DNA from: Candidatus Poseidoniaceae archaeon | GTDB taxonomy: Archaea > Thermoplasmatota > Poseidoniia > Poseidoniales > Poseidoniaceae | DNA: 49,152 nt | Direction of reading: 5' to 3' | Assembly (NCBI GenBank): GCA_949373075.1 | Contig: CASIBX010000014.1 | Span: 1 to 49,152 of the forward strand | Shown here: positions 10,854-49,152 of the stretch, piece after piece | Layout of the letters: every line of letters starts with the position of its first letter | Position numbering within the stretch: the first letter of the stretch is position 1 | Position numbers and translations under genes: made by a program | Notes under the pieces: generated by a model | Seen by the model: only the letters and a program-made list of their open reading frames with translations | The model's database searches: none | What the model was told of the DNA's origin: nothing

Positions 10854-10889
10854 TGTAGTGGACGCGAAACCCATTATTTGGCGAGTACT

Positions 10890-12620
10890 ATGTCTGGATA
10901 TGCCATAGAGGATGTTCCTACTGCACAAGTACGTGGTGAGGCATCTGATGTATTGGACGGTAGTGATTCAGTTCAAGAGTCCCTGATGGCTGAAGCAGTC
11001 ATCCAAGTTTCTGAAAGCGATGAAGTGATTGGGCCTATTTCTAAGTTCGACAGTCATTACAAAATTGGTTCATATCACAGGGCTTTTAGCGTATTATTAT
11101 TCGATTCATCTGGAAGACTACTCTTACAGAGAAGAGCCTCTCACAAAATCACTTTTCCAGATGTTTGGGCCAATTCTTGCTGTTCCCATCCACTACATAG
11201 TGACGAGGAGTTAGAGTTGAAAAACAACCTTGGAGTAAAGCGAGCAGCAATCCGAAAGTTAGAGCAAGAGTTAGGGATTACACCTTCTCAAGTACCGTTG
11301 GATAAATTTGATTTCGTTACAAAAATGCGCTATCAAGCACGCCAGGATGACGACTGGATTGAAAGAGAAGTTGACCATTGTTTGGTCATTCATGCAGACG
11401 TGGATGTCCATCCCAATCCTAACGAGGTTAGCGAAATTAAATGGGTTAGTCAGAGTGAACTAGAAGATATGTTAATCGCTGAAGATCCTGACAATGTAAT
11501 CGCCCCTTGGTTCAGGTGTATTGCTGCGAGAATAATGGATGATGACTGGTGGAGACCGGGATGTGCTAAGCCAGATGGTTTGATTCATGATATGGGTGAT
11601 GTGTCACACATGTTACCAAATGCAATAGGTGCAGACTTAAACACTAGCATAGCCGAAGTCAAAGACTTGGTTGAACAAAGAATCGAAAGAGCCCTCACAC
11701 ATACTTCCTTAGATAGACTGTCTGGTGCTATGATGCATTTGGTTGAAGGTGGAGGTAAGAGACTTCGAGCAACTCTTCCTTGGCTGGTAGCCAAGGCGGT
11801 TGGTGATTCGCATTCCGGATTGTTAGATGTCGGAGCTGCTATTGAAATAATTCACAATTTCACTTTAGTTCATGATGACATCATGGATGATGATGACATC
11901 AGGCGTGGCCGTCCAGCAGTACACGTTGCCTATGACTTGCCCACTGCGATTAATGCTGGTGACGCAATGCTCGCAATCGCCTTTGAAGCGATGGCTGTGG
12001 CTGAAGGAATTGAACCTGAATTGTTACCATTCCTCGTTAAGAGAATTGGCCGAATGGTTCGTAAATGCAGTGAAGGTCAACAATTAGATATCGAATTTGA
12101 AGATAGAGGATTTGTCACTGAAGACGAATATATCACCATGATTCATGGGAAGACGGCAGCAATGTTCCTCACTTGTGCTGAGGTAGGCTCTCACCTAGCG
12201 GGCGCAGATACTGAAACCATTGAGTGCATGCACGATTGGGGTCTTGCAGTTGGATTATGTTTCCAGTTGATGGATGACTTAATCGATGTTCTTTCGGATT
12301 CGGATACATTGGGTAAGCCTAGTGGTAGTGACGTTGCTCAAGGAAAGCGTACTCTGATGGTGATTCATGCGTTAGAACAGCCTCCTTCCAAATCTAAGGA
12401 CGACTTAATGGCAGTATTGGGCAAAGGAGATGATGTTAGTGCAGAACAGGTAATGCTTGCTCACAAAGCATTGGAAGATTTAGGTTCAATCGACTACGCT
12501 CGTTCTAAAGCAGAGTCTTACCATCGAAAAGCCCACGATTGCCTGGACAGGTTGCCAAATAGCCCAGCAATGAGGGCTTTGAGGGAATTGACCGACTACC
12601 AACTCAAACGGATATATTGA
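10890..12620 (+). CDS. Fusion: type-1 (Nudix) isopentenyl-diphosphate isomerase + polyprenyl (GGPP/FPP) synthase
   Basis: N-term SYHRAFSVLLFDSSGRLLLQRRASHKITFPDVWANSCCSHPLH (IDI-1) ; C-term LVHDDIMDDDDIRRGRPAVH (first Asp-rich motif) and FQLMDDLIDVLSD (second Asp-rich motif); one uninterrupted reading frame. Confidence 0.92.
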   Translation: MSGYAIEDVPTAQVRGEASDVLDGSDSVQESLMAEAVIQVSESDEVIGPISKFDSHYKIGSYHRAFSVLLFDSSGRLLLQRRASHKITFPDVWANSCCSHPLHSDEELELKNNLGVKRAAIRKLEQELGITPSQVPLDKFDFVTKMRYQARQDDDWIEREVDHCLVIHADVDVHPNPNEVSEIKWVSQSELEDMLIAEDPDNVIAPWFRCIAARIMDDDWWRPGCAKPDGLIHDMGDVSHMLPNAIGADLNTSIAEVKDLVEQRIERALTHTSLDRLSGAMMHLVEGGGKRLRATLPWLVAKAVGDSHSGLLDVGAAIEIIHNFTLVHDDIMDDDDIRRGRPAVHVAYDLPTAINAGDAMLAIAFEAMAVAEGIEPELLPFLVKRIGRMVRKCSEGQQLDIEFEDRGFVTEDEYITMIHGKTAAMFLTCAEVGSHLAGADTETIECMHDWGLAVGLCFQLMDDLIDVLSDSDTLGKPSGSDVAQGKRTLMVIHALEQPPSKSKDDLMAVLGKGDDVSAEQVMLAHKALEDLGSIDYARSKAESYHRKAHDCLDRLPNSPAMRALRELTDYQLKRIY

Positions 12621-33715: not shown

Positions 33716-36700
33716 TCAATCGTACAAATCTGATACGGTCATGTCTTCTGGTACTTCCTTAGTAGGAGGTCCCAAATCTAGAGCAGGAGGTACATCCTGC
33801 ACAGGTGGATTCATAGTAATCGGTTGTAATGTATTGTTAGAATCACCGAGCATTGCTTCGGTCATATTGTCCTTCTGATATTCCCATGCATACTCGGGTT
33901 CTCTCTTCGACCTGATAACCATGAAACCAAGTACTGAAACAAGAATGATTCCAAGCATTCCTGCTGAAACCCAAACTAAATCATTATCCACAGATGCTAT
34001 GATATCTGAATTATCACCAACTCCATCACCATCTGAATCTGTATCTTCTTTAGGATCATCAGGGAATGCATCCTTATCGTCAGGTGTACCATCACCGTCT
34101 CTGTCTAAGGGGTCGTAAGTCGTCACACAGTTTTCAGCGTGGTCTTCTATCTCATCAAGTTGAATGAACAAGTCATTATTTCGGTCCATTTCAAAGAAAT
34201 CATACTCATTCTTCCATGCAATGCTGGATAGGAACTCGATGCTACCACCATCTGTAGCAATTTGGTCCATCGTTATCCACAACTCATTTTCACAAGTACA
34301 TGCTTCAGCTTTGAGTTCATCAATTCCAATGACTCCATCCTTGTTTACGTCTACTTGCTCGAAATCGAATTCGTCATCGAAATCCCCAATCTCTGATTGT
34401 GAAATGTCGCCGTCCTCATTTGCATCGACCTGTGTGAACAATTCATCAGCTATTTCGTCACAAGACAATATTTCTTCTTCATTAATTGGGTCGACTGGTT
34501 CTGGATCAGGGTCTGGACCTGGCATACCAAATCCATCCCAAGTAGCTAATATTGAAATATCCTCGATGTCACTGTTTGCAACCATGGTAATGTCAATCCG
34601 TCCAGTTACGAAAAATATGTTTAATTCTTCATCAGCTTGGCCATAATCAGACTCATAATCCATGTTTTCTGACATTTGTCTTCCACCTGGTCCGCCACCT
34701 GGCCCGCCGCCTTCTTCAAAGTCCCCCCAATCGATGCTTTCTGCTTCTGCAAAGAGTCCAAGGTCTCCTTCACCACCCCATGTTTGGATATTCAATTCCA
34801 TGGCATCTTCATCACCTAAGTCGATAAAGAAGTACAATTCTTCACCTTCTGGTGCATTGATTCCAGATACTTCTTCTTCATTGAATAATTGAATTGGTTC
34901 ACCGTCATATGACCAGATGTACCTGTCGGTAAAAGATGCAGTAATGTCGATTCGACTGTAGAACTCTTCACTTCCTAGCAAGATGTACCAGCGCCCCGGA
35001 GTTGGGTCATTGAAACCAATTTTATCTCCAGCGCCTGGTGCATTGGAATGCTTGTCGTATGTGGTCCAAGTTGGATATTCTTCAAGTCGCATCATCAACT
35101 TAGCTTCTCCATCACCATTATCTAAATCAACTTCGAGTCTTTCAGTTCCTACTGGTACATCGATGTAGAAGTATTGGTCAAGCCCATCGAAACCACTCAG
35201 TGGTCCGTATGAGATTCCGGCCGTCAATTCAATTGCAGACTCAGGGTCTGTATTGTCTGGACTGTACGTGAAATCAGCTTGTATAGTTACTTCTCGACAA
35301 CCTGAATACGACGTTAACATAACATAATAAATTCCAGGTTCTGCATCAAAAATCTGTACCGTTTCATCATTACCTGGCCCATAGGAGTGGTCGGATGTTG
35401 TTTGGCCAGACATTTGCCTGCCCTCAGTTGACTCTATGGCAAAGTCGAATTCGAATTCATCATCCCATCCCATATCTGTAGAAGGTAATGCACCTAGGGC
35501 AATGTGTAGTTCACAATCACCCGGTCCACCCCAAGTGTTAACCCTTAATTCAGCCAAACTTTCTTGTAAATCTACGTAGTAGTAAAGCGGGTCGCCAGAA
35601 TTCCTTCGAATGGTTTGTCCTGTGACAGAAATACCGTCATTTAACTCGATCATATCTTCAAGTTCAGGAGGTTCAGGGGCTTCTTCCCAGTATGCATTTA
35701 TTTCCAAATTATTAATGTCTGCATTTGAGGATATAGTCATCCAGTACACACCTTCATCTGGCCATTCAAAGTATTCGTAAACGTACAATCCCCAATCAAA
35801 GGTTTCAACTTGGTAATCATGATTCCAAGCCGAAGGTATTTCATTCATTGAAATGTAAATTTCATACTCAATATCCCCATCATATTCTTCTTCAAAGTCA
35901 AAATCCCATGAGAAAATACTCATTGATAACTCAATTGTATTTTCTGGTATTTCCATGAAGAACAGTAGTGTGTCTCCAGCATTGGCACTAATTCCATCGT
36001 AATATTCGTCATTCTCTAGTTCAAAAGCCTGAGCGATTATTGTCCCATCTGGCATTACCCAGGCAGCACCAATAATTTCACCAATCAGACCTTGGTAATC
36101 TTCAGTTGTATCACCCTCACCTTCAGGGAATAACCATTCAGATGCATTTGCAGCATCTAGAATCCTTAAATCATCCATCATTCCATGGAAGTGGTTACAA
36201 TCACAACCGGCACCCATTCTTCCGATGTATAACTCATCACAATCATCGCCTGATTGGAAACAATCATTGGAGCCAAAATCCCCCGCTGGAATTTGTGAAT
36301 CATTAACGTCTATCAGTCCGGCTGACTCATTATCGATGAAAAACTCTCCACCGCCTTGAGTGTCAACAATAACTTTGATGTGTGTCCAAACATTCTCTTG
36401 AATAGAAACATTTGACGTAGGATTTGCAGACATCGAGTATTGGTTCGAATATGCTAGGTATCCATCGTTAAGGTACATTCCCCATCCATAATCACCCAGC
36501 ATGGTTACGAATTGAATCCCTGATTTGTCAGGGACATTTACCCATGCTTCAATTTCTATATGGTCATCCCAAATCGGGATGTCTGCATCTATGATAATGT
36601 GGTCATCTACTCCATCGAATCTCAATGCATAATCTGCACCTTCTCCAATTTCAACAACACCGTAAACTGGGAAATACTGAGGGTCGTCTTCTAAATCATT

Positions 36701-37201
36701 CCAAGATGCTGGCTCAATTGAACCCATATTCGTCCCTGTAATGTGAATGTAGTCTTCATCATCACCACTTCCTGGTTGGCCATCTCCCCAATTCCTATAC
36801 AAAAATGGAGTTCCATCATGCCATCGGAAGTCCCCTTCATTCTGTTCATCTGAAAGTCCAGTCCAAAGATGCCGAGTAGTATTATCTCCTAAAGCGAAAG
36901 TCTCGTAGATCCACTGGTCTTCTTCAGCATCATCAATTGTAACCAAGAACCCATCGAGGCTTCTAGCTACGGATGCAGCATCACTCCATGAAGAGGCAGA
37001 TAACAGATGGTAGGTATGGTTATTTGCAGGATTAACTACGGTCTCTAAAACCTCAATATCTTCTATATCTGCTGCAGCAGATGTGGTTACAAATGGGCTA
37101 GCGCTTACCAGCAACATTAGAGCAGTTAGGACAAACGCTTTACAATTCACGATTTTGTGTGTGAATCCCTTGTTATTTAATGTAATACCGTTTTTGTACA
37201 T
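33716..37201 (-). CDS. Large surface protein: signal peptide, C-type-lectin-like domain, LamG/concanavalin-like domain, PPC-like repeats, EF-hand/TSP3 Ca-binding motifs, C-terminal TM
   Basis: Signal FVLTALMLLVSASPFVTTSAAA; CTLD HTYHLLSASSWSDAASVARSLDGFLVTIDDAEEDQWI...HLWTGLSDEQNEGDFRWHDGTPFLYRNWGDGQP; LamG-like YALRFDGVDDHIII...IEIEAWVNVPD; EF-hands VDANEDGDISQSEI and VDVNKDGVIGIDEL; DRDGDGTPDDKDAFPDDPKEDTDSDGDGVGDNSD; C-terminal TM VSAGMLGIILVSVLGFMVIRSKR. Confidence 0.85.
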   Translation of the reverse strand: MYKNGITLNNKGFTHKIVNCKAFVLTALMLLVSASPFVTTSAAADIEDIEVLETVVNPANNHTYHLLSASSWSDAASVARSLDGFLVTIDDAEEDQWIYETFALGDNTTRHLWTGLSDEQNEGDFRWHDGTPFLYRNWGDGQPGSGDDEDYIHITGTNMGSIEPASWNDLEDDPQYFPVYGVVEIGEGADYALRFDGVDDHIIIDADIPIWDDHIEIEAWVNVPDKSGIQFVTMLGDYGWGMYLNDGYLAYSNQYSMSANPTSNVSIQENVWTHIKVIVDTQGGGEFFIDNESAGLIDVNDSQIPAGDFGSNDCFQSGDDCDELYIGRMGAGCDCNHFHGMMDDLRILDAANASEWLFPEGEGDTTEDYQGLIGEIIGAAWVMPDGTIIAQAFELENDEYYDGISANAGDTLLFFMEIPENTIELSMSIFSWDFDFEEEYDGDIEYEIYISMNEIPSAWNHDYQVETFDWGLYVYEYFEWPDEGVYWMTISSNADINNLEINAYWEEAPEPPELEDMIELNDGISVTGQTIRRNSGDPLYYYVDLQESLAELRVNTWGGPGDCELHIALGALPSTDMGWDDEFEFDFAIESTEGRQMSGQTTSDHSYGPGNDETVQIFDAEPGIYYVMLTSYSGCREVTIQADFTYSPDNTDPESAIELTAGISYGPLSGFDGLDQYFYIDVPVGTERLEVDLDNGDGEAKLMMRLEEYPTWTTYDKHSNAPGAGDKIGFNDPTPGRWYILLGSEEFYSRIDITASFTDRYIWSYDGEPIQLFNEEEVSGINAPEGEELYFFIDLGDEDAMELNIQTWGGEGDLGLFAEAESIDWGDFEEGGGPGGGPGGRQMSENMDYESDYGQADEELNIFFVTGRIDITMVANSDIEDISILATWDGFGMPGPDPDPEPVDPINEEEILSCDEIADELFTQVDANEDGDISQSEIGDFDDEFDFEQVDVNKDGVIGIDELKAEACTCENELWITMDQIATDGGSIEFLSSIAWKNEYDFFEMDRNNDLFIQLDEIEDHAENCVTTYDPLDRDGDGTPDDKDAFPDDPKEDTDSDGDGVGDNSDIIASVDNDLVWVSAGMLGIILVSVLGFMVIRSKREPEYAWEYQKDNMTEAMLGDSNNTLQPITMNPPVQDVPPALDLGPPTKEVPEDMTVSDLYD

Positions 37202-37452
37202 CCCTATCTTCAGGATTAGTGGATATATCCAGTGGATATGAAAGAGTTGGTAAATTGGTTTTACGAAATATCAACTTCGTATGAATGCTTATGCGAATGG
37301 TAGGCCAGTAAGAGGTACTGAACACTATTGAACTCTCCCATAATGTCTTGGGGGTATGATAGAACCCTTGCGAAAACCTCTGTATTTCTTATGCCAGTAA
37401 ATGAGTTTGCAAGGCTGCTCTTTCAATCTCATGATTTATACCTCTAGACATA

Positions 37453-38967
37453 TTGGTAAGTACATGGCAGCAGACCTTCAATCTCCTTCTTTCAGTACGA
37501 TTGAAGTACACGCTAATGTTGTTCAAACGATTCTACCCCTGGCGGTCGTTTAGCGTGCATCGCAAGAACTTCGGCCGCAATCGTGTACTTCAGCCTTCAG
37601 CGAGCTACACTCCTGCCAACGAGCAGGAAGTCTTGGAGATTCTAAATAGGCATCAAGGTCAGAGTATCCGTGCTGTTGGTAGATTGCATAGTTGGAGTGA
37701 GGCTATAATTGGCGATGGTGTTCAAATGGATTTGCGTCGATTGAACGATGTATTGCTCGAGCCAGATGGTGATGAGTTTGTTGCCACTGTTGGGGCAGGT
37801 TGTCAAGTCAAGCGTCTTCTCAAGGAACTGAATCGCGGCGGTGCCACCCTACATTCGCTTGGTCTAATCGATGTACAAACCATTGCGGGTGCTATCTCCA
37901 CAGGAACTCATGGGTCTGGTCGCCACAGTATGTCGCACTATGTCGAAGAGGTGCGACTGGCACGATATGACGAATCAACCGGAAATGCATTCATCGATGA
38001 AGTGAGTGCAGGAGATAATTTGTTGGCAGCCCGTTGTTCACTGGGTTCGCTTGGAATTATTCTGTCCGTGAAAATTAGATGCCGTGCGCAGTATAACGTG
38101 CAGGAGCACTTCACCGAGTCTCGAAGGCTGGATGATGTTCTGGCTGCTGAAGAATCATACCCTCTCCAGCAGTTTTATTTCATTCCATGGCGATGGTCAT
38201 ACTTCATTCAACACCGCTGTGAAGATACTGCTAAGCGGTCGTTCCTCGCCAGAATGTATCGCCTCTACTGGTTGGGAGTGATGGACTACGGTATGCATCT
38301 GAAGATATTATTCCTAGAGCGTGTGTTGCGAAGCCGGCGCATGATTCGGTTTACTTTCCGCCGTCTAGTATCTTTATTCCTTATTCGTAAGTGGAAGGTC
38401 ACAGATCGCTCCTCGTCCATGTTAGTGATGAAGCACGAGGCTTTTAGACACATTGAGATTGAATTATTCGTACCACGAGACCAGTTGACCAGAGGCCCTC
38501 AAGGTTTACCAAAGAAGTCATCGAGGTTGCAGGGAAGAAAGACGCTACATTGTCAGCGGCTAACCAGCGCCGAATCGATGACCTCGGCATGCAAGAAGAC
38601 CTAGAAGAACTTCAGGACCAGTACTGCCAACACTACCCCATATGCGTGCGACGAGTTCTTCCTGATGACACCTTGATTTCTATGGCTAGTGGTGAAGACC
38701 AAGACTGGTATGCGGTGAGTTTCATCAGTTACGCAAAACCAAAACGTAGAGCGGGGTTCGACCTATTCTCAAAGTTCATGGCTCGGAGTATGTCTCAACT
38801 ATTCCAGGCTCGCCCTCATTGGGGAAAAATTAGTCCCCTCGAGGCCGGTGAACTAACGGCCCTCTACCCTAGATTCGATACATTCCGCACAGTCAGTAAG
38901 AGCGCTTGACCCGCAAGGTGTATTCCAAAATGAATGGACAGCAGCGTTGCTAGATGCAGATGATTAG
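37453..38967 (+). pseudogene. FAD-linked sugar-1,4-lactone oxidase (arabinono/gulono-lactone oxidase family), disrupted by frameshifts
   Basis: FAD-binding_4 portion ASYTPANEQEVLEILNRHQGQSIRAVGRLHSWSEAIIGDGVQMDL...GLIDVQTIAGAISTGTHGSGRH intact; ALO-like C-terminus continues in other frames (FTKEVIEVAGKKDATLSAANQRR..., then ALDPQGVFQNEWTAALLDADD*). Confidence 0.75.
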
Positions 38968-38970
38968 AAA

Positions 38971-40128
38971 TTGCTGTGGATGGAGATAATCGGGGGGCGA
39001 ATCAGGGTGCTGAAATATATCAAATATTATATTCCAGCCATAACTGGAATTTTTGCTATTATGTTTTTTTTAATGGGTCAAAACTACCCCACTTATTTCT
39101 TCATTAGCTGGTCATTATTTCTTATCATCGGAGATTATGTTTTGCCAAGAGATAAGGAGATTCAGCAATTTTCATATCCAAGATTTTTGGATTTTTCAAT
39201 CTACATAAATCTACCAATATTATTCTGTTTAATATTCTTGATAGTATCGATTTTTAGTAATGACACCCCCTCCTGGTATGTCGATGGATTAAATTCACAG
39301 TTCAATATTGATTTTATCCAAATCAAAGAATCTTTTACTCTAATCGATAAAGTCGCATTGATCTCCCAAACCGCATTATTTGTGGGCATACTGGGCACAG
39401 TTCCTGGTCATGAGTTAGTACATAGAAAAAAGAGTAAAATTGACATGTTCATTGGAAACTGGCTACTGGCGTTTTCGTGGGATTGTACTTTTGCTATCGA
39501 GCACGTTCACGGACATCACAGAGACGTGTGCTTAGATGAAGACCCAGCCTCTGCAAAAAGGGGAGAAAATATCTATTTATTTATTCTAAGAGCCACTTTA
39601 CAAGAACAAATAAGCGGCTGGAAGATTGAATCAGAGCGATTGAAAAGAAGAAATCATAATATGTTCAGTATTCGTAATAGAATGATTATAGGCTATCTTA
39701 GAAGCCTAAGTATAACCATTACAGCGTTTTTGTTTGGCGGTTTAACCGGAATGTTGAGTTTTCTTTTGTGTGCATTCTTGGCAAAATTACTTTTAGAATC
39801 AATTAATTATATTGAACATTATGGTTTAGTAAGACAAAGAGGGACACCAGTGAAAATGAGGCACTCTTGGAACTCTAATCATTTGCTAAGTAGCATTTAC
39901 CTATGTAATGTGACGAGACATTCGGACCATCATAGAGCTGCAAATTTGAAATTCTGGGAACTCAATCCATGTCATGAAGATGCACCTCTATTGCCATATG
40001 GATATTTATCGATGTTATATTTGCTATTAGTTACGCCATTCGTATACAGTAAAGTAATGTCGAAACAATTCATTGACTGGGACCAAAACTATGCTAATGA
40101 ATACGAGAGAGATTACATAATGCAATGA
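38971..40128 (+). CDS. AlkB-family alkane-1-monooxygenase-like membrane di-iron hydroxylase
   Basis: GHELVHRKKS, EHVHGHHRDVCLDEDPASAKRGENIY, NYIEHYGLVRQRG, MRHSWNSNHLLSSIYLCNVTRHSDHH; all His boxes and NYIEHYGL typical of AlkB. ORF start is TTG 38971; ATG 38980 also possible. Confidence 0.88.
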   Translation: MLWMEIIGGRIRVLKYIKYYIPAITGIFAIMFFLMGQNYPTYFFISWSLFLIIGDYVLPRDKEIQQFSYPRFLDFSIYINLPILFCLIFLIVSIFSNDTPSWYVDGLNSQFNIDFIQIKESFTLIDKVALISQTALFVGILGTVPGHELVHRKKSKIDMFIGNWLLAFSWDCTFAIEHVHGHHRDVCLDEDPASAKRGENIYLFILRATLQEQISGWKIESERLKRRNHNMFSIRNRMIIGYLRSLSITITAFLFGGLTGMLSFLLCAFLAKLLLESINYIEHYGLVRQRGTPVKMRHSWNSNHLLSSIYLCNVTRHSDHHRAANLKFWELNPCHEDAPLLPYGYLSMLYLLLVTPFVYSKVMSKQFIDWDQNYANEYERDYIMQ

Positions 40129-40264
40129 GCCCCAACAGAGTCCTTTGAGTGGGTACCCAAAACGTGATTTTCTCATGCAAGGGTGTACAAAGGGTTGCAA
40201 AAGTTGGATTTAGGTTCACTGTATCCTGACCAAACTATTTACCCTAACCGTAACATTACGTAAT

Positions 40265-42376: not shown

Positions 42377-43009
42377 TCAGATTAGTTGCGAACCAACTTC
42401 ACGACCATTTGACAAAGTCAAAACTTGATGAGTCGATTGACCACTTGGAATGTGAATGTAAAGATTAGCACTAATCCCATGCGTGTCGAGGTGTGGGGGG
42501 CCGCATTCACCAGCAGCTCCACCTGGACTGTCTTGAGTTCCCCCATCAAGGGTGAAGAAGTATCGTGCACCCGGCCTAAAGTTAGCCACATCGGCAAAAC
42601 CGGGAGTCTCTGGGCCATCTGTGCCTATTTCCCACACATGTATATCTGAACCACCGTTGGAATCACCCAGTGCTGCAGAACGGTAATGAAAGGTTCCATC
42701 TGGCTCAGTACAAGTCAATACGTACTGTACATCATCTCTAGCCAAGGGGTCACCAGCACCACCAAACTCCATCATGAATAACATATCATCTTGGTTATCA
42801 TAAACCCAAGCACCAGTAATGACCACAGTATTTACACTGTTCCTGCGAACATCTTCCGATGCTTTCTGAGTATGCTGAGAGATCTTTTCAGTTATGTTAA
42901 TCAGAGTAAATGTGATGATTGTCGCTAGCATAACCATTGCGATAAACACGATTAACGCCCCAGTCCCCATTGAACATTCATCGTCCGAGATAATTTTATT
43001 TCGACGCAT
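42377..43009 (-). CDS. Archaellin / type IV pilin-like protein
   Basis: Short acidic N-terminus then MGTGALIVFIAMVMLATIITFTLINITEKISQHTQKASEDV, closely archaellin-like. Confidence 0.65.
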   Translation of the reverse strand: MRRNKIISDDECSMGTGALIVFIAMVMLATIITFTLINITEKISQHTQKASEDVRRNSVNTVVITGAWVYDNQDDMLFMMEFGGAGDPLARDDVQYVLTCTEPDGTFHYRSAALGDSNGGSDIHVWEIGTDGPETPGFADVANFRPGARYFFTLDGGTQDSPGGAAGECGPPHLDTHGISANLYIHIPSGQSTHQVLTLSNGREVGSQLI

Positions 43010-43018
43010 GAATAGACC

Positions 43019-43588
43019 TCAATTCAAATCCTGCCCTTCATAGGGCGAACTACCAATGTTCATCTGCAACTCTTGAGTACGGCCTCTGTCGACCATTATC
43101 ACCAAAGTAGCCGTTTCAACATCAGTCAAATCACAATCATCTAACACCATAATCATCCGATAATAGGCTCCTGGTTCAAATTCAACTAATGGTAAGGCAG
43201 TCTCACCATCTCCATCTAAAGTAGTAGCGAGTTCAAAGTTGCCTGAATCGATACGGATAGTATCTCGGACTCCCTGATTTGAAGGAACGCACAATATATT
43301 CCAACTTAGGTCTTCATCAAACAAAGGCTGTTCAATATATGGCAATTCAAAGACAATATGAACTTCATCGGGAGGACCTAAACTGAAAACTTCCAATACG
43401 ACTACATTTGTGATTCCTTTAGCACTAGGAATATTTTGCTCAGCGTCATTTTGGGATAATGTGAACACATTTTGACCGACACCGACGATGATTGCAGAAA
43501 TGATTGAACTAACCAATATCAAGGCTATGAAAATAATCATCGCACTTGTGCCGACTTCGGCAGATTCATCTTCATAACTGCGTCGCAT
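43019..43588 (-). CDS. Archaellin / type IV pilin-like protein (tandem partner)
   Basis: EVGTSAMIIFIALILVSSIISAIIVGVGQNVFTLSQNDAEQNI; same architecture as the adjacent gene. Confidence 0.62.
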   Translation of the reverse strand: MRRSYEDESAEVGTSAMIIFIALILVSSIISAIIVGVGQNVFTLSQNDAEQNIPSAKGITNVVVLEVFSLGPPDEVHIVFELPYIEQPLFDEDLSWNILCVPSNQGVRDTIRIDSGNFELATTLDGDGETALPLVEFEPGAYYRMIMVLDDCDLTDVETATLVIMVDRGRTQELQMNIGSSPYEGQDLN

Positions 43589-43722
43589 ACTTATCTCAAA
43601 CTACATTAGCAAGTCCGATACAGTTTAAGTTATCGTGATATGTAAGTTATTGCTTCAACATATTCATGAAAAATACTCCGTAACATTAGTCCAATTTTAT
43701 CCCGGTAAAAGTCTAAAGCCAA

Positions 43723-44643
43723 TTGATAAATGTACAATATGTGCCTAGTGAATTAATACCAGAATACGTAATTATGAAATCTAGAGACGGTCGTAGATTG
43801 GATGTGATGTTAGGTGGAAACCCGACATCAGATGTGGCTTTAGTTTGTCATCATGGAACCCCTAGTGATGCATCACTATGGAGAGGATGGAATGAGGATG
43901 CTGTAGAAAATGACCTGAAGTTAGTTGCAATCTCAAGACCAGGGTATGCCTTTTCGGATAGGAAGGCGCAACGAAGTGTGGCTTGTGTTGCTGGAGATGT
44001 GGAGGATGTTCTAGATTTATTAGGAATTTCTAATTTCTTTACTATAGGATGGTCAGGCGGTGGACCTCATGCCTTAGCTTGTGCTTCGCTACTTTCTTCA
44101 AGATGCCTAGGGGCCTCGATTTTGGCAGGAGTTGCACCGCATGGGGAACCAGATTTAGATGCAACTTCTGAGATGGGTCCAGAAAATATTGAACATAAAA
44201 GGGTCACTTTACTAGGAGAAGAAGAATTACGAAAGTGGGCAGAGGTAAACACTACATCATGGTTTACAATTGCTGATGAAAAGTTAGCGGAGACCCTAGG
44301 AGGGCTTGTTCCTGAAATTGATATCGATTATCTCAACAACCATGGCCAAGCCACTATTTGGGCTAGCAGTATACGTCGGTGTCTTCAAAATGGAATTGAC
44401 GGATATATTGATGACAGTTTAGTTTATTGTAAGGATTGGGGGTTTAATCTTAGAGACATCGAAGTACCTGTAACAATTTGGCAAGGTGATTTGGACCTGA
44501 TGGTGCCATTTGAACATGGTCAATGGCTGATAAAACATATTCCAAATGCTAGTTCACAATTGAAAATTGGAGAAGGACACATTTCTTTGGTAGCGAAATA
44601 CAAGCCAGAAATGATTGAGGATTTAATTAAAAACAGAAACTAG
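43723..44643 (+). CDS. Alpha/beta hydrolase
   Basis: VCHHGTPSDASLW oxyanion region; FTIGWSGGGPHALACASLL nucleophile elbow; WQGDLDLMVPFEHGQWL; GEGHISLV. Confidence 0.85.
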   Translation: MINVQYVPSELIPEYVIMKSRDGRRLDVMLGGNPTSDVALVCHHGTPSDASLWRGWNEDAVENDLKLVAISRPGYAFSDRKAQRSVACVAGDVEDVLDLLGISNFFTIGWSGGGPHALACASLLSSRCLGASILAGVAPHGEPDLDATSEMGPENIEHKRVTLLGEEELRKWAEVNTTSWFTIADEKLAETLGGLVPEIDIDYLNNHGQATIWASSIRRCLQNGIDGYIDDSLVYCKDWGFNLRDIEVPVTIWQGDLDLMVPFEHGQWLIKHIPNASSQLKIGEGHISLVAKYKPEMIEDLIKNRN

Positions 44644-44716
44644 ATCATCACTTAGGTCTGAAAATATTGAATAAATAGATGGTTGTTAGTCAATAAATAA
44701 CGTGATTTCCTTCACA

Positions 44717-46084
44717 TCATCTGCGATTATTTTGGCGGTTTGAACGATTTCCACCTTGTGAAGTGCGATTATTTCCACCTCGTGGTCTACGGTCATCGCC
44801 ATCTCTGGAATTATTATTTGAACGACGTTTGTATTGATTCGGTTTGTTATCCGATCTACTACGAGGGTTTTTGTTCTCGGAACTCTTCTTCTTCTGAGAC
44901 TTATTCTCCTTAATCTTACCAGGTTTTTGACCCGGCTTAGGAATAGCCCCTTCGAAGTGGAATTCATGAGTATCATCAACTGGAATTTCAGCACCAATCA
45001 GTTGTTGAATTCCAACTAGATAACCAGATTCAGAATTGTCACAAAAACCGTAAGCAATACCTGAACGGCCAGCTCTTGCAGTTCTACCGATACGATGGAC
45101 ATAACTTTCAGGCTCATTAGGTAAATCATAATTGAAAACGTGGGTGATTCCTTCAACATCGATTCCTCTACTTGCGATATCGGTGGCGACTAGTATTGGG
45201 ATACGCCCTGCCTTGAAACCTGCCAGTGCCTTTGTTCTAGCACCTTGACTCTTGTTACCATGGATTGCTGCTGCACTGATGCCACTTTGGTCCAGTTGTT
45301 TCACCAGCCTATTTGCTCCATGCTTGGTTCTAGTAAACACAATTCCACATTTTACTTTCTGTGACTTTATGATTTGAACCAATAATCGTCGTTTGTCGGC
45401 TTTACGAATAAACATAATTTTCTGTTCGATGCGGTCTACTGTTACTTCTTTTGGACTTACATCAATCATAACTGCGTCATTAAGAAATGAACCTGCTAAA
45501 TCAGCAATGGAACCAGGCATAGTGGCACTGAACAAGAGGTTTTGGCGTTTTTTAGGAAGTAATTTCAGTACTTTGTTTATGTCTCTAATGAATCCCATAT
45601 CTAACATTCTATCTGCCTCATCGAGAACGAAAAACTCAACACGTGAAAGGTCGATATGTCTCTGTCCAATGAGATCTAGTAATCGCCCAGGTGTCGCAAC
45701 TAGAATGTCAAGACCCTTCTGTAAAGCTCTTACCTGTGGATTCTGATTTACCCCTCCAAAGATTACTTTGTGATTCAGGTTGAGGTTTTCACTATATGCA
45801 GCGAACCTCTCACCAATTTGTGCGGCTAATTCTCTAGTAGGAGAGAGTATCAGTGCTCTAATGTATCTTTTTCCCTGTGGTACTGACCTACTCATTACTT
45901 GGAGGACAGGTAATGCAAAAGCCGCTGTTTTACCAGTTCCTGTTTGCGCCACTCCCAGAACATCTCTACCGGCCAGCAATGGCGGGATTGCTTGCTCCTG
46001 AACTGGAGTTGGAGTCGTATATCCTTCCGACTCCACCGCTTGGAGAAGTTTCTTGGAAAGTCCAAGTGATTCAAAATTATTCAT
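44717..46084 (-). CDS. DEAD-box RNA helicase, RhlE-like, with disordered basic Asn/Arg/Gly tail
   Basis: FESLGLSKKLLQAVESEGYTTPTPVQEQAIPPLLAGRDVLGVAQTGTGKTAAFALP, VLDEADRMLDMGF, LFSATMP, VHRIGRTARAG; tail RPRGGNNRTSQGGNRSNRQNNRR. Confidence 0.93.
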   Translation of the reverse strand: MNNFESLGLSKKLLQAVESEGYTTPTPVQEQAIPPLLAGRDVLGVAQTGTGKTAAFALPVLQVMSRSVPQGKRYIRALILSPTRELAAQIGERFAAYSENLNLNHKVIFGGVNQNPQVRALQKGLDILVATPGRLLDLIGQRHIDLSRVEFFVLDEADRMLDMGFIRDINKVLKLLPKKRQNLLFSATMPGSIADLAGSFLNDAVMIDVSPKEVTVDRIEQKIMFIRKADKRRLLVQIIKSQKVKCGIVFTRTKHGANRLVKQLDQSGISAAAIHGNKSQGARTKALAGFKAGRIPILVATDIASRGIDVEGITHVFNYDLPNEPESYVHRIGRTARAGRSGIAYGFCDNSESGYLVGIQQLIGAEIPVDDTHEFHFEGAIPKPGQKPGKIKENKSQKKKSSENKNPRSRSDNKPNQYKRRSNNNSRDGDDRRPRGGNNRTSQGGNRSNRQNNRR

Positions 46085-46238
46085 TATTATATCTCCAGTT
46101 ATTGTTGACCCCAATTCAGAGTATTGCCAGTCACAACATTACATGTTTTTCCTTCTGGACTTAAACAGCATGGGTCACATTGAATGAAACCAATCACATT
46201 AGAGTTAGTTAATACTGAAGCGGAATGAGTATAATGCC

Positions 46239-47486
46239 TCAATCGTTGATTACTTCTGGTGATTTAGAAAGGTCTCGAGTTATGTTCTTCTGGTGGGATT
46301 CGATAGTTCCTCCACCTATTTCAAGAAGTTTAGAATCTCTCCAAAGTCTCTCGACAACATACTCTGCAACATAGCCGTATCCACCCATTACCTGTATGGC
46401 TGCATCTGCGATTTCTTTGGCAGCAGTTGTTGCAAATAATTTAACACCGTCTGAATCTAATCTTTGACCTGCATTACCAAGTCCCATATTGTTAGCAGTA
46501 TCATAAATGTAAGCACGCATAGCACGATACTTAGCCCAAGATTCTCCAATGTATCGCTGCATTTGTCCAAAGTCACGGATTTGACTACCAAAAGCGACTC
46601 TGTCTGTAGCATATCTATTCATTTCATCTAGTGAACGCCTAGCAATTCCAAGAGACATGGCTGCTAGAGTAAGACGTTCAATCTCAAGATTACGCATCAT
46701 GTGAATCATAGAGTCACCGACTTGGCCAACTAAATTTTCAGCAGGCACAATGCAATCTTCGAAAACTAACTCTGCTGTATTGGATGCACGCATGCCGGTC
46801 TTATCGATAATCTTCTGACCGACACTGTAACCCGGCATTCCATTCTCAACTAAGAAAGTAGATAATTGTGCTTTACCCTTTTCATTGACACCTGTTCTTG
46901 CGTAAACCCATACCACGTCAGCAGGAGTTCCTTCATTATCCAGACAACCATTGGTAATCCACATCTTTCGACCATTGATGACCCATGAACCATCTTCCCT
47001 CTGCTCTGCAGTAGTTGAAAGACCCATAACGTCAGTACCTGCGTCAGGCTCACTCATCGCCATTGCTCCAATCCATTCACCAGAACAAACTTTTGGAAGA
47101 ATTCTGGAACGCTGAGAATCATTACCGTTGAATTCAAGATTATTTACGAATAACATTGCATGCGCCAAGTATGCTAAAGCAAAACCAGGGTCACTAGCGG
47201 ATAGCTCTTCGTGAACGATTACAGTTGCTACTGCGTCTAAGCCAGCTCCACCAAATTCTTCACTAGCAGTGATGCCCAATAATCCAAGTTCACCAAGTGA
47301 TCTTAACAGTTCTAAATTGAACTTCTCTTCACGGTCAAACTCAAGGGCCTGAGGCTCAACATGTTCCTTTACGAAATCACGTACCATGTCCCTTAGCATT
47401 TGGTGCTCTTCGCTAGGATTTGCGATGTCCATGACTGTCCCCATTTTGATGTCGGGGGAGATTGTGCTTTTTTGTGTTCGTATCAA
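46239..47486 (-). CDS. Acyl-CoA dehydrogenase
   Basis: AMSEPDAGTDV, WITNG, TGMRASNTAELVFEDCIVPAENLVG, QVMGGYGYVAEYVVERLWRDSKLLEIGGGTIESHQKNI. Confidence 0.94.
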   Translation of the reverse strand: MIRTQKSTISPDIKMGTVMDIANPSEEHQMLRDMVRDFVKEHVEPQALEFDREEKFNLELLRSLGELGLLGITASEEFGGAGLDAVATVIVHEELSASDPGFALAYLAHAMLFVNNLEFNGNDSQRSRILPKVCSGEWIGAMAMSEPDAGTDVMGLSTTAEQREDGSWVINGRKMWITNGCLDNEGTPADVVWVYARTGVNEKGKAQLSTFLVENGMPGYSVGQKIIDKTGMRASNTAELVFEDCIVPAENLVGQVGDSMIHMMRNLEIERLTLAAMSLGIARRSLDEMNRYATDRVAFGSQIRDFGQMQRYIGESWAKYRAMRAYIYDTANNMGLGNAGQRLDSDGVKLFATTAAKEIADAAIQVMGGYGYVAEYVVERLWRDSKLLEIGGGTIESHQKNITRDLSKSPEVIND

Positions 47487-47896
47487 AGGATGATTTTCCT
47501 AGCACGCTTTCTAGGATGATTTTCATGTCCCATAGCAGGTCGTGACTTTGCTCGACGTACAGCCCTTCGAGTCTTTACTTTCCTCTCACTTCTTGCGATT
47601 TTCTTGGCTCTTTTGCCAACATGTTTGAGATGTCCGGATTTGATTTCTGGTTCGGCAGGAAGGTGGTTGTCAATTCCTGCACGTGAAAGTACATCTTTTG
47701 CTAGGCCACGGTGAGACACAACTGTTGCTTCTTCAACAATTCTGGACGCCATATGCCTTAGTGTGTCACCGTTGTGAACAATCGGCTGAGTTGTTATTTC
47801 AACATTCACATGTTGTTGTATTTCCAGCTGTTCTTCCAACAGTGAAACTAGAAAATTCTTAGTTAAATCAACTTGCTCACGCTCTATCATATGCAT
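47483..47896 (-). CDS. Small protein with strongly basic C-terminus, function unknown
   Basis: Intact ORF with ATGA-type overlap to the acyl-CoA dehydrogenase; C-term KKIARSERKVKTRRAVRRAKSRPAMGHENHPRKRARKIIL. Confidence 0.5.
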   Translation of the reverse strand: MHMIEREQVDLTKNFLVSLLEEQLEIQQHVNVEITTQPIVHNGDTLRHMASRIVEEATVVSHRGLAKDVLSRAGIDNHLPAEPEIKSGHLKHVGKRAKKIARSERKVKTRRAVRRAKSRPAMGHENHPRKRARKIIL

Positions 47897-48001
47897 CCCA
47901 TCCAGTTATCAGGGACTCTGGCGCAGTTATGAACTTTCGGCGTCTAATACACACTTAGGAGCCTGTTTCCAATGCGGAAAAAACACTCCAATTTATCGAA
48001 A

Positions 48002-48077
48002 TGGGGCCGTGACCGGGACTTGAACCCGGGCTGGCAGGACCACAACCTACCGTGCTAACCGCTACACCATCACAGCC
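48002..48077 (-). tRNA. tRNA-His (GTG)
   Basis: Reverse complement GGCTGTGATGGTGTAGCGGTTAGCACGGTAGGTTGTGGTCCTGCCAGCCCGGGTTCAAGTCCCGGTCACGGCCCCA: cloverleaf with 7-bp acceptor, GTG anticodon in loop TTGTGGT, TTCAAGT T-loop, G-1 and 3' CCA encoded. Confidence 0.95.
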
Positions 48078-48181
48078 ATCGGTTGTTTTGGTCCACCGTC
48101 AAGCCGTATTTATCTCATTCCGTTAGAAATCATGACTTCAAACACCGCTCCATTGAAGTTAGATTGCAACTAGGGGCTGGT

Positions 48182-49152
48182 ATGCGCCGATTTACCGTGC
48201 TTGTGATTTTTTTACTAGTCATGCCACTAACATTGGCTGAAGCACGTAGTGTACACTCGACGCAAACTGTTGATATGTTCCCTCAAGGTGACATGGAAAA
48301 TGATTCAGAATGGGATTTCAAACGTCATCTCGCATTCACAGCAGAAGATAGAATGGAAGATGGACAGTATGTTCACGGAATGGTAGCAGACAATCGTATG
48401 ACAATGGGGATAACTCTGCCTGAGCATCTTGATCAACAGAGGATTTGGGCTAGCACCACATCGACTAATTCGAATGCTTCAATCGGAAATCCAGATGGAG
48501 CATACAGTTGGTCAACCGGGCCCGACATCACATGTGGGCGGGTTCGATGTATCAGCCCTGACTGGAAACTCGATATCGAAAGCGTATGCATTAGTCGTCC
48601 ATTTCGACGTATACCAAACTCCTTGCAGCAAGACAAGGCGAGGTTTTCGGTCGTCAACAACGGAATCCATGACTTGGTAAAGACCTGGAGTAATACCCAG
48701 AGCGGCATCTGTACTACATGACCAGTGGATGGTCGACACCAGATCAGCGACACTCCGATAACTGGACTTGGCAATGACCTTTCAAACTATCGAAATCAAT
48801 CTCGATTATGTATCGAATGGAGGCACTGATGATTCGGAACTTCAAGTCGATGCTGTAGCCCTAGAAAGTCACCATGACGTACCCCTTGGTACGGCGCAGA
48901 AAGGGTAACTGCCACATCTATAAACCAATTTACAGAGTGGCCAATCTAATGGATTTAGACCTAACCACCGGCATCATTATCACTCTGTGTCCACGGCGCC
49001 TTGCGGACTCGACTCGGAATCAAGGCACTTGGACTACCGAGGTCTTTGGAAAAACCAGCAGGTCAGTCATGGGGTCAGAATACATGCTGAACACAATGAC
49101 GCAAATGGAAGCGTAGCAATCGAGTATCTCGATAATCAAGGAGCATGGGTTT
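48182..49152 (+). pseudogene. Secreted/surface protein gene with multiple frameshifts, truncated by window end
   Basis: Signal peptide MRRFTVLVIFLLVMPLTLAEA then VDMFPQGDMENDSEWDFKRHLAFT...; the plausible protein hops frames: SHVGGFDVSALTGNSISKAYALVVHFDVYQT, DKARFSVVNNGIHDLVKTWSNTQSG, LYYMTSGWSTPDQRHSDNWTW, QTIEINLDYVSNGGTDDSELQVDAVALE, PWYGAERVTATSINQFTEWP. Confidence 0.6.

Follow-up and report, generated by a model that had tools for sequence, protein, structure and literature searches.

AlkB is a bacterial terminal hydroxylase of alkanes and fatty acids that requires rubredoxin, and rubredoxin is usually assumed in marine alkB surveys. XylM is supplied with electrons through the ferredoxin-type XylA. 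The AlkB/XylM fold family also includes desaturases and other hydroxylases. In the AlkB of Fontimonas thermophila (FtAlkB), Arg284 and Arg287 are said to contact rubredoxin (PMC10113152). A class of AlkB fused to a ferredoxin-reductase is known and stated to be active (review, PMC8918992), and Dokdonia is reported to use n-hexadecane without AlkG and AlkT (PMC10654063). Among archaea, an alkane 1-monooxygenase is listed for Marine Group II, all genera of which encode fatty-acid degradation (PMC6461757), and alkB was reported in Poseidonia MAGs (PMC8166890). AlkB in an archaeon is by itself already known from Marine Group II. Our literature search found no paper on two AlkB types in Poseidoniales, on the lack of rubredoxin in this order or on an AlkB clade shared with marine bacteria.

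The window, a stretch of 49,152 nucleotides, is an entire contig of a 1.62-Mb Poseidoniaceae MAG with 60% completeness. By its sequence, one gene product is an AlkB/XylM-family membrane diiron hydroxylase of the AlkB type. The original prediction of an open reading frame with the AlkB signature at 38971–40128 on the forward strand was confirmed: every quoted motif was found, in agreement with the domain and PDB matches. The intact frame of 385 aa is open from TTG 38971. FA_desaturase is the sole curated domain match (Pfam, E 3.7e-28), and sequence matches in the PDB are limited to two alkane 1-monooxygenases (E 2.4e-39 and 1.5e-36). Conservation with the relatives sets in at GTG 39007 with their N-terminus MLKYxKYYIP, and most relatives without the upstream FAD gene have DNA homology to the window from 39008 on; the protein therefore probably starts at this GTG and has 373 aa. 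Elsewhere in the window, a probably secreted protein of 1161 aa (33716–37201, reverse strand) has C-type lectin, laminin-G-like, PPC and EF-hand matches, and a single frame (10878–12620, forward strand) matches models of isopentenyl-diphosphate isomerase and a GGPP-type prenyl synthase, an apparent fusion.

Table 1. Features of the AlkB locus; positions refer to the window, residue numbers are counted from 38980.
Feature	Position	Strand	Remarks
DNA homology common to five FAD oxidase–AlkB loci	37415..40139 (about)	.	flanks unrelated, different in each locus
FAD-linked oxidase (FAD_binding_4 + ALO), alditol/sugar-lactone oxidase family	37555..38967	+	domains PF01565 + PF04030; directly upstream of AlkB
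AlkB-type non-haem diiron membrane hydroxylase, about 373 aa	39007..40128	+	open reading frame, domain match, starts of relatives, model
His box HELVH	39409..39423	+	ligands H144, H148 (FtAlkB His137/His141)
His box EHVHGHH	39499..39519	+	ligands H175, H179, H180 (FtAlkB His167/171/172)
NYIEHYG	39805..39825	+	ligands E279, H280, mapped to FtAlkB
11-residue loop VRQRGTPVKMR	39829..39861	+	replaces the loop of 16 residues that docks rubredoxin (FtAlkB Arg284/Arg287)
His box RHSDHH	39916..39933	+	ligands H314, H317, H318

A structure-guided mapping onto FtAlkB, with the ligand residues of that enzyme taken from PMC10113152, recovered all nine His ligands and the Glu ligand. The alignment shows the same ten residues in its further members, 14 from Poseidoniales and 16 from marine bacteria, except that two of the His positions hold an ambiguous X in the draft bacterial sequences. 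E279 corresponds to Glu271 of FtAlkB and lies beside the sixth His. A Glu at this position separates the AlkB type from XylM-like references, which have Gln, and from the native Poseidoniales protein described below, which has Gln or Arg. Membership in XylM was ruled out by this Glu and by the placement of XylM in a separate clade. The AlphaFold model (pLDDT 90) is closest in fold to the PDB entries 8f6t (TMq 0.75) and 8sbb (TMq 0.73); the predicted fold matches solved AlkB.

The original prediction had pointed out that no rubredoxin is encoded nearby. This was borne out by the window, and a search of the whole MAG, which is 60% complete, found none either. Across the order, rubredoxin above the Pfam cut-off was absent from all 311 Poseidoniales genomes searched, including 35 near-complete ones, in a search that was positive in 7 of 14 controls, two of them archaea. 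Rubredoxin was present in a single one of the 18 scanned genomes with the enzyme type of the window.

The phylogenetic analysis used plasmid homologues as labelled references: AlkBs adjoining rubredoxin, and AlkB or XylM adjoining or fused with a 2Fe-2S reductase. The clade of the window protein grouped with AlkBs of Hydrocarboniclastica (adjacent 2Fe-2S reductase) and Polaromonas (fused ferredoxin-reductase) with a support of 98/94, and XylM joined this group (100/98). In agreement with the predicted family, the window protein thus falls within the AlkB/XylM proteins, on the side of ferredoxin-linked AlkB and XylM. The grouping was stable after removal of the loop columns (99/95). A constraint placing the clade with rubredoxin-linked AlkBs was rejected (p-AU 0.0013; the test was chosen after the tree had been seen).

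The spacing between the HYGL and HSWN motifs is 16 residues in all six rubredoxin-linked references. It is 11 residues in all seven ferredoxin-linked references and in all proteins of the window clade. The segment missing from the window loop holds Arg284 of FtAlkB, and Arg287 is replaced by Pro. Four of the six docking Arg positions carry neither Arg nor Lys, with basic residues lost at 148, 169, 284 and 287. Loop length switches once on the tree; its link to the electron donor is therefore a phylogenetic correlation.

The genome of the window encodes a stand-alone [2Fe-2S] ferredoxin of 98 aa. Matches to a XylA query were present in 201 of 311 Poseidoniales genomes and were confined to the ferredoxin domain; a XylA-like ferredoxin reductase was absent from Poseidoniales among the matches listed. 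The archaeal and marine bacterial neighbourhoods examined had no ferredoxin or reductase gene fused to or beside AlkB, so that for the window enzyme we infer the donor. A plant-type [2Fe-2S] ferredoxin probably reduces the enzyme rather than rubredoxin, because a recognisable rubredoxin is lacking, the tree position is ferredoxin-linked and the docking loop is missing.

AlkB-like proteins are present in 236 of 319 Poseidoniales genomes. The type of the window is found in just 19, with 67–89% identity. The closest relatives beyond Poseidoniales come from marine Flavobacteriales, Lentimicrobiaceae, Neomarinimicrobiota and one proteobacterial MAG (49–64% identity). The Poseidoniales copies form one clade (100/100) nested among marine bacterial relatives; domain, PDB and ligand evidence as well as this tree uphold the earlier view of a bacterial-type AlkB/XylM-family hydroxylase gene in a planktonic archaeon. 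Two Poseidoniales families are intermixed within the clade, with four changes of the family label on the tree. This pattern fits a single entry and later spread inside the order: the gene probably entered Poseidoniales once and then moved between the two families at unrelated sites, a direction of transfer that rests on an unrooted tree. As judged from the sequences, the clade is common to Poseidoniales, marine Flavobacteriales and Neomarinimicrobiota, and this sharing is new here. A copy with 83% identity on a 3.8-kb contig labelled 'Gammaproteobacteria bin9s' (JAAZZI010000094.1) was left out of the bacterial count as apparently misbinned. This contig also bears the tail of the FAD gene and is probably a misbinned Poseidoniales contig.

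The original prediction placed AlkB 3 nt downstream of a broken FAD oxidase gene. The FAD gene is indeed directly upstream and frame-broken, at two places near 38.5 kb and 38.9 kb in this assembly, with the last frame ending at 38967; the gap is about 39 nt when counted from GTG 39007. These breaks may reflect gene decay or an assembly error. The FAD oxidase is intact in four relatives. It lies directly upstream of AlkB in five loci (the window, G027, G092, G265 and G031), which form one group on the tree (96/95), equal to a single change. By this gene order, the FAD oxidase travels with AlkB in one sub-lineage. A search for an empty site showed that the genes flanking the window site are conserved in the nearest relative, G031, which has the pair on another contig.

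The native AlkB-like protein of the order forms a separate clade with mostly 30–39% identity to the window type in the catalytic half. It retains the nine His ligands, with Gln or Arg in the Glu position. It is possibly the annotated alkane 1-monooxygenase of Marine Group II. Its loci (L051, L053–L072) are syntenic within genera, for example after IMP dehydrogenase-like and methionine sulfoxide reductase-like genes. According to the native-protein profile, it is present in one of the 19 carriers of the window type (G257) and in about 217 of the 300 other genomes (Fisher P 5e-9). Stratified by genus, one co-occurrence was observed and 9.5 were expected (P 3e-6); genus counts were tallied by hand and the statistics ignore kinship within genera. 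The near-exclusive occurrence suggests that the window type replaces the native protein in most carriers, and we infer that the replacement would be functional.

The gene neighbourhoods bear on the substrate. In six bacterial loci, an aldehyde dehydrogenase gene is located next to or near AlkB, in some together with a TetR regulator gene, which points to aliphatic oxidation to the acid. None of the archaeal copies has an aldehyde dehydrogenase beside it; the genome of the window encodes four. The substrate is most likely an aliphatic chain. The enzyme would hydroxylate its terminal methyl group and would draw electrons, like XylM/XylA and the ferredoxin-fused AlkBs, from a plant-type [2Fe-2S] ferredoxin. 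The product could feed the fatty-acid degradation of Poseidoniales. In the sub-lineage with the alditol oxidase-like FAD enzyme, the latter perhaps oxidises the alcohol product. The bacterial-type gene would have been acquired laterally, spread between the Poseidoniales families and taken the place of the native AlkB-like protein in most carriers. We give a probability of about 0.62 to this reading as a whole, a laterally acquired AlkB/XylM-family monooxygenase for ferredoxin-driven terminal hydroxylation of aliphatic chains that replaces the native protein.

A canonical alkane hydroxylase that depends on rubredoxin, with the rubredoxin gene located elsewhere or missed because the genome is incomplete, is improbable. 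It would agree with the family, with the identical set of nine His and Glu ligands and with a MAG that is just 60% complete. The rubredoxin dependence expected from the textbook enzyme is at odds with the absence of rubredoxin from all 311 genomes of the order, near-complete ones included, in a search positive in half of the controls, and from 17 of the 18 scanned carriers. The window protein is also excluded from the rubredoxin-linked tree group, and both the docking loop and the basic docking residues are gone. Even less credible is an origin of the AlkB segment as bacterial DNA that entered an archaeal MAG by binning or assembly contamination, a concern raised with the original prediction. 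The GC content of the gene region (0.37, about 0.44 around it) and the marine bacterial origin of the closest non-archaeal relatives could be read that way. Contamination is unlikely because the same contig encodes an archaeal EF-2, the region 42377–48721 is syntenic with Poseidoniales genomes of the same genus, and the gene is also located on contigs of two Poseidoniales genomes of that genus, AH-273-F07 and AG-461-G23, which have single-cell style names and no MAG label. The copies in 19 Poseidoniales genomes, one clade where aligned, likewise speak for an archaeal host.

The closest competitor of ferredoxin-driven hydroxylation in alkane or fatty-acid use concerns the role of the enzyme in the cell. 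It may act on isoprenoid or fatty acyl chains of own or dietary lipids, as an omega-hydroxylase or modifier that replaces a native enzyme of the same job, and not on environmental hydrocarbons. The near-exclusive occurrence with a native protein found in the majority of genomes, as a general function would be, is in line with this role, as are archaeal loci without an alkane operon. We regard it as rather unlikely: the same chemistry is not given, since the Glu ligand is missing from the native protein, and bacterial relatives of different lipid chemistry bear an aldehyde dehydrogenase close to AlkB.

On the preferred reading of a ferredoxin-driven aliphatic hydroxylase, some of the marine alkB genes, among them those of archaea abundant in the surface ocean, would rely on a different electron donor and may be misinterpreted. 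A broader scenario is tentative and seems somewhat less probable than its opposite: a rubredoxin-free AlkB lineage may circulate among free-living marine bacteria and archaea, may have displaced the native Poseidoniales enzyme repeatedly and could give surface-ocean archaea a ferredoxin-driven route to biogenic alkanes. The near-exclusive AlkB pair in Poseidoniales offers a concrete test of hydrocarbon against lipid-chain oxidation.

Among known systems, FtAlkBG of F. thermophila (PDB 8F6T) has a fused rubredoxin. The window AlkB shares its predicted fold, the nine His and Glu ligands and the histidine boxes at about 28% identity, but is without a rubredoxin domain; the loop carrying Arg284 is missing from it, as are several further basic docking residues. 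The native Poseidoniales protein has the nine His in common with the window type, whereas the Glu is present only in the latter. The upstream FAD enzyme resembles the alditol (xylitol) oxidase and sugar-1,4-lactone oxidase family in its domain architecture; the match to the nearest solved structure, a xylitol oxidase (PDB 2VFR), is distant and the window copy is broken. XylM of TOL-type plasmids is on the same side of the tree as the window clade, with the short loop and a ferredoxin-linked supply, but is only 28–29% identical and has Gln at the Glu position. The sister group is formed by ferr_ferrR_AlkB of Polaromonas (pPNAP01) and by a related, unfused AlkB on the Hydrocarboniclastica plasmid psoil36-7. 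Their [2Fe-2S] reductase is fused or adjacent, respectively, in contrast to the window AlkB, which has neither. With about 36–37% identity to the window AlkB, both share its Glu ligand and its short loop.
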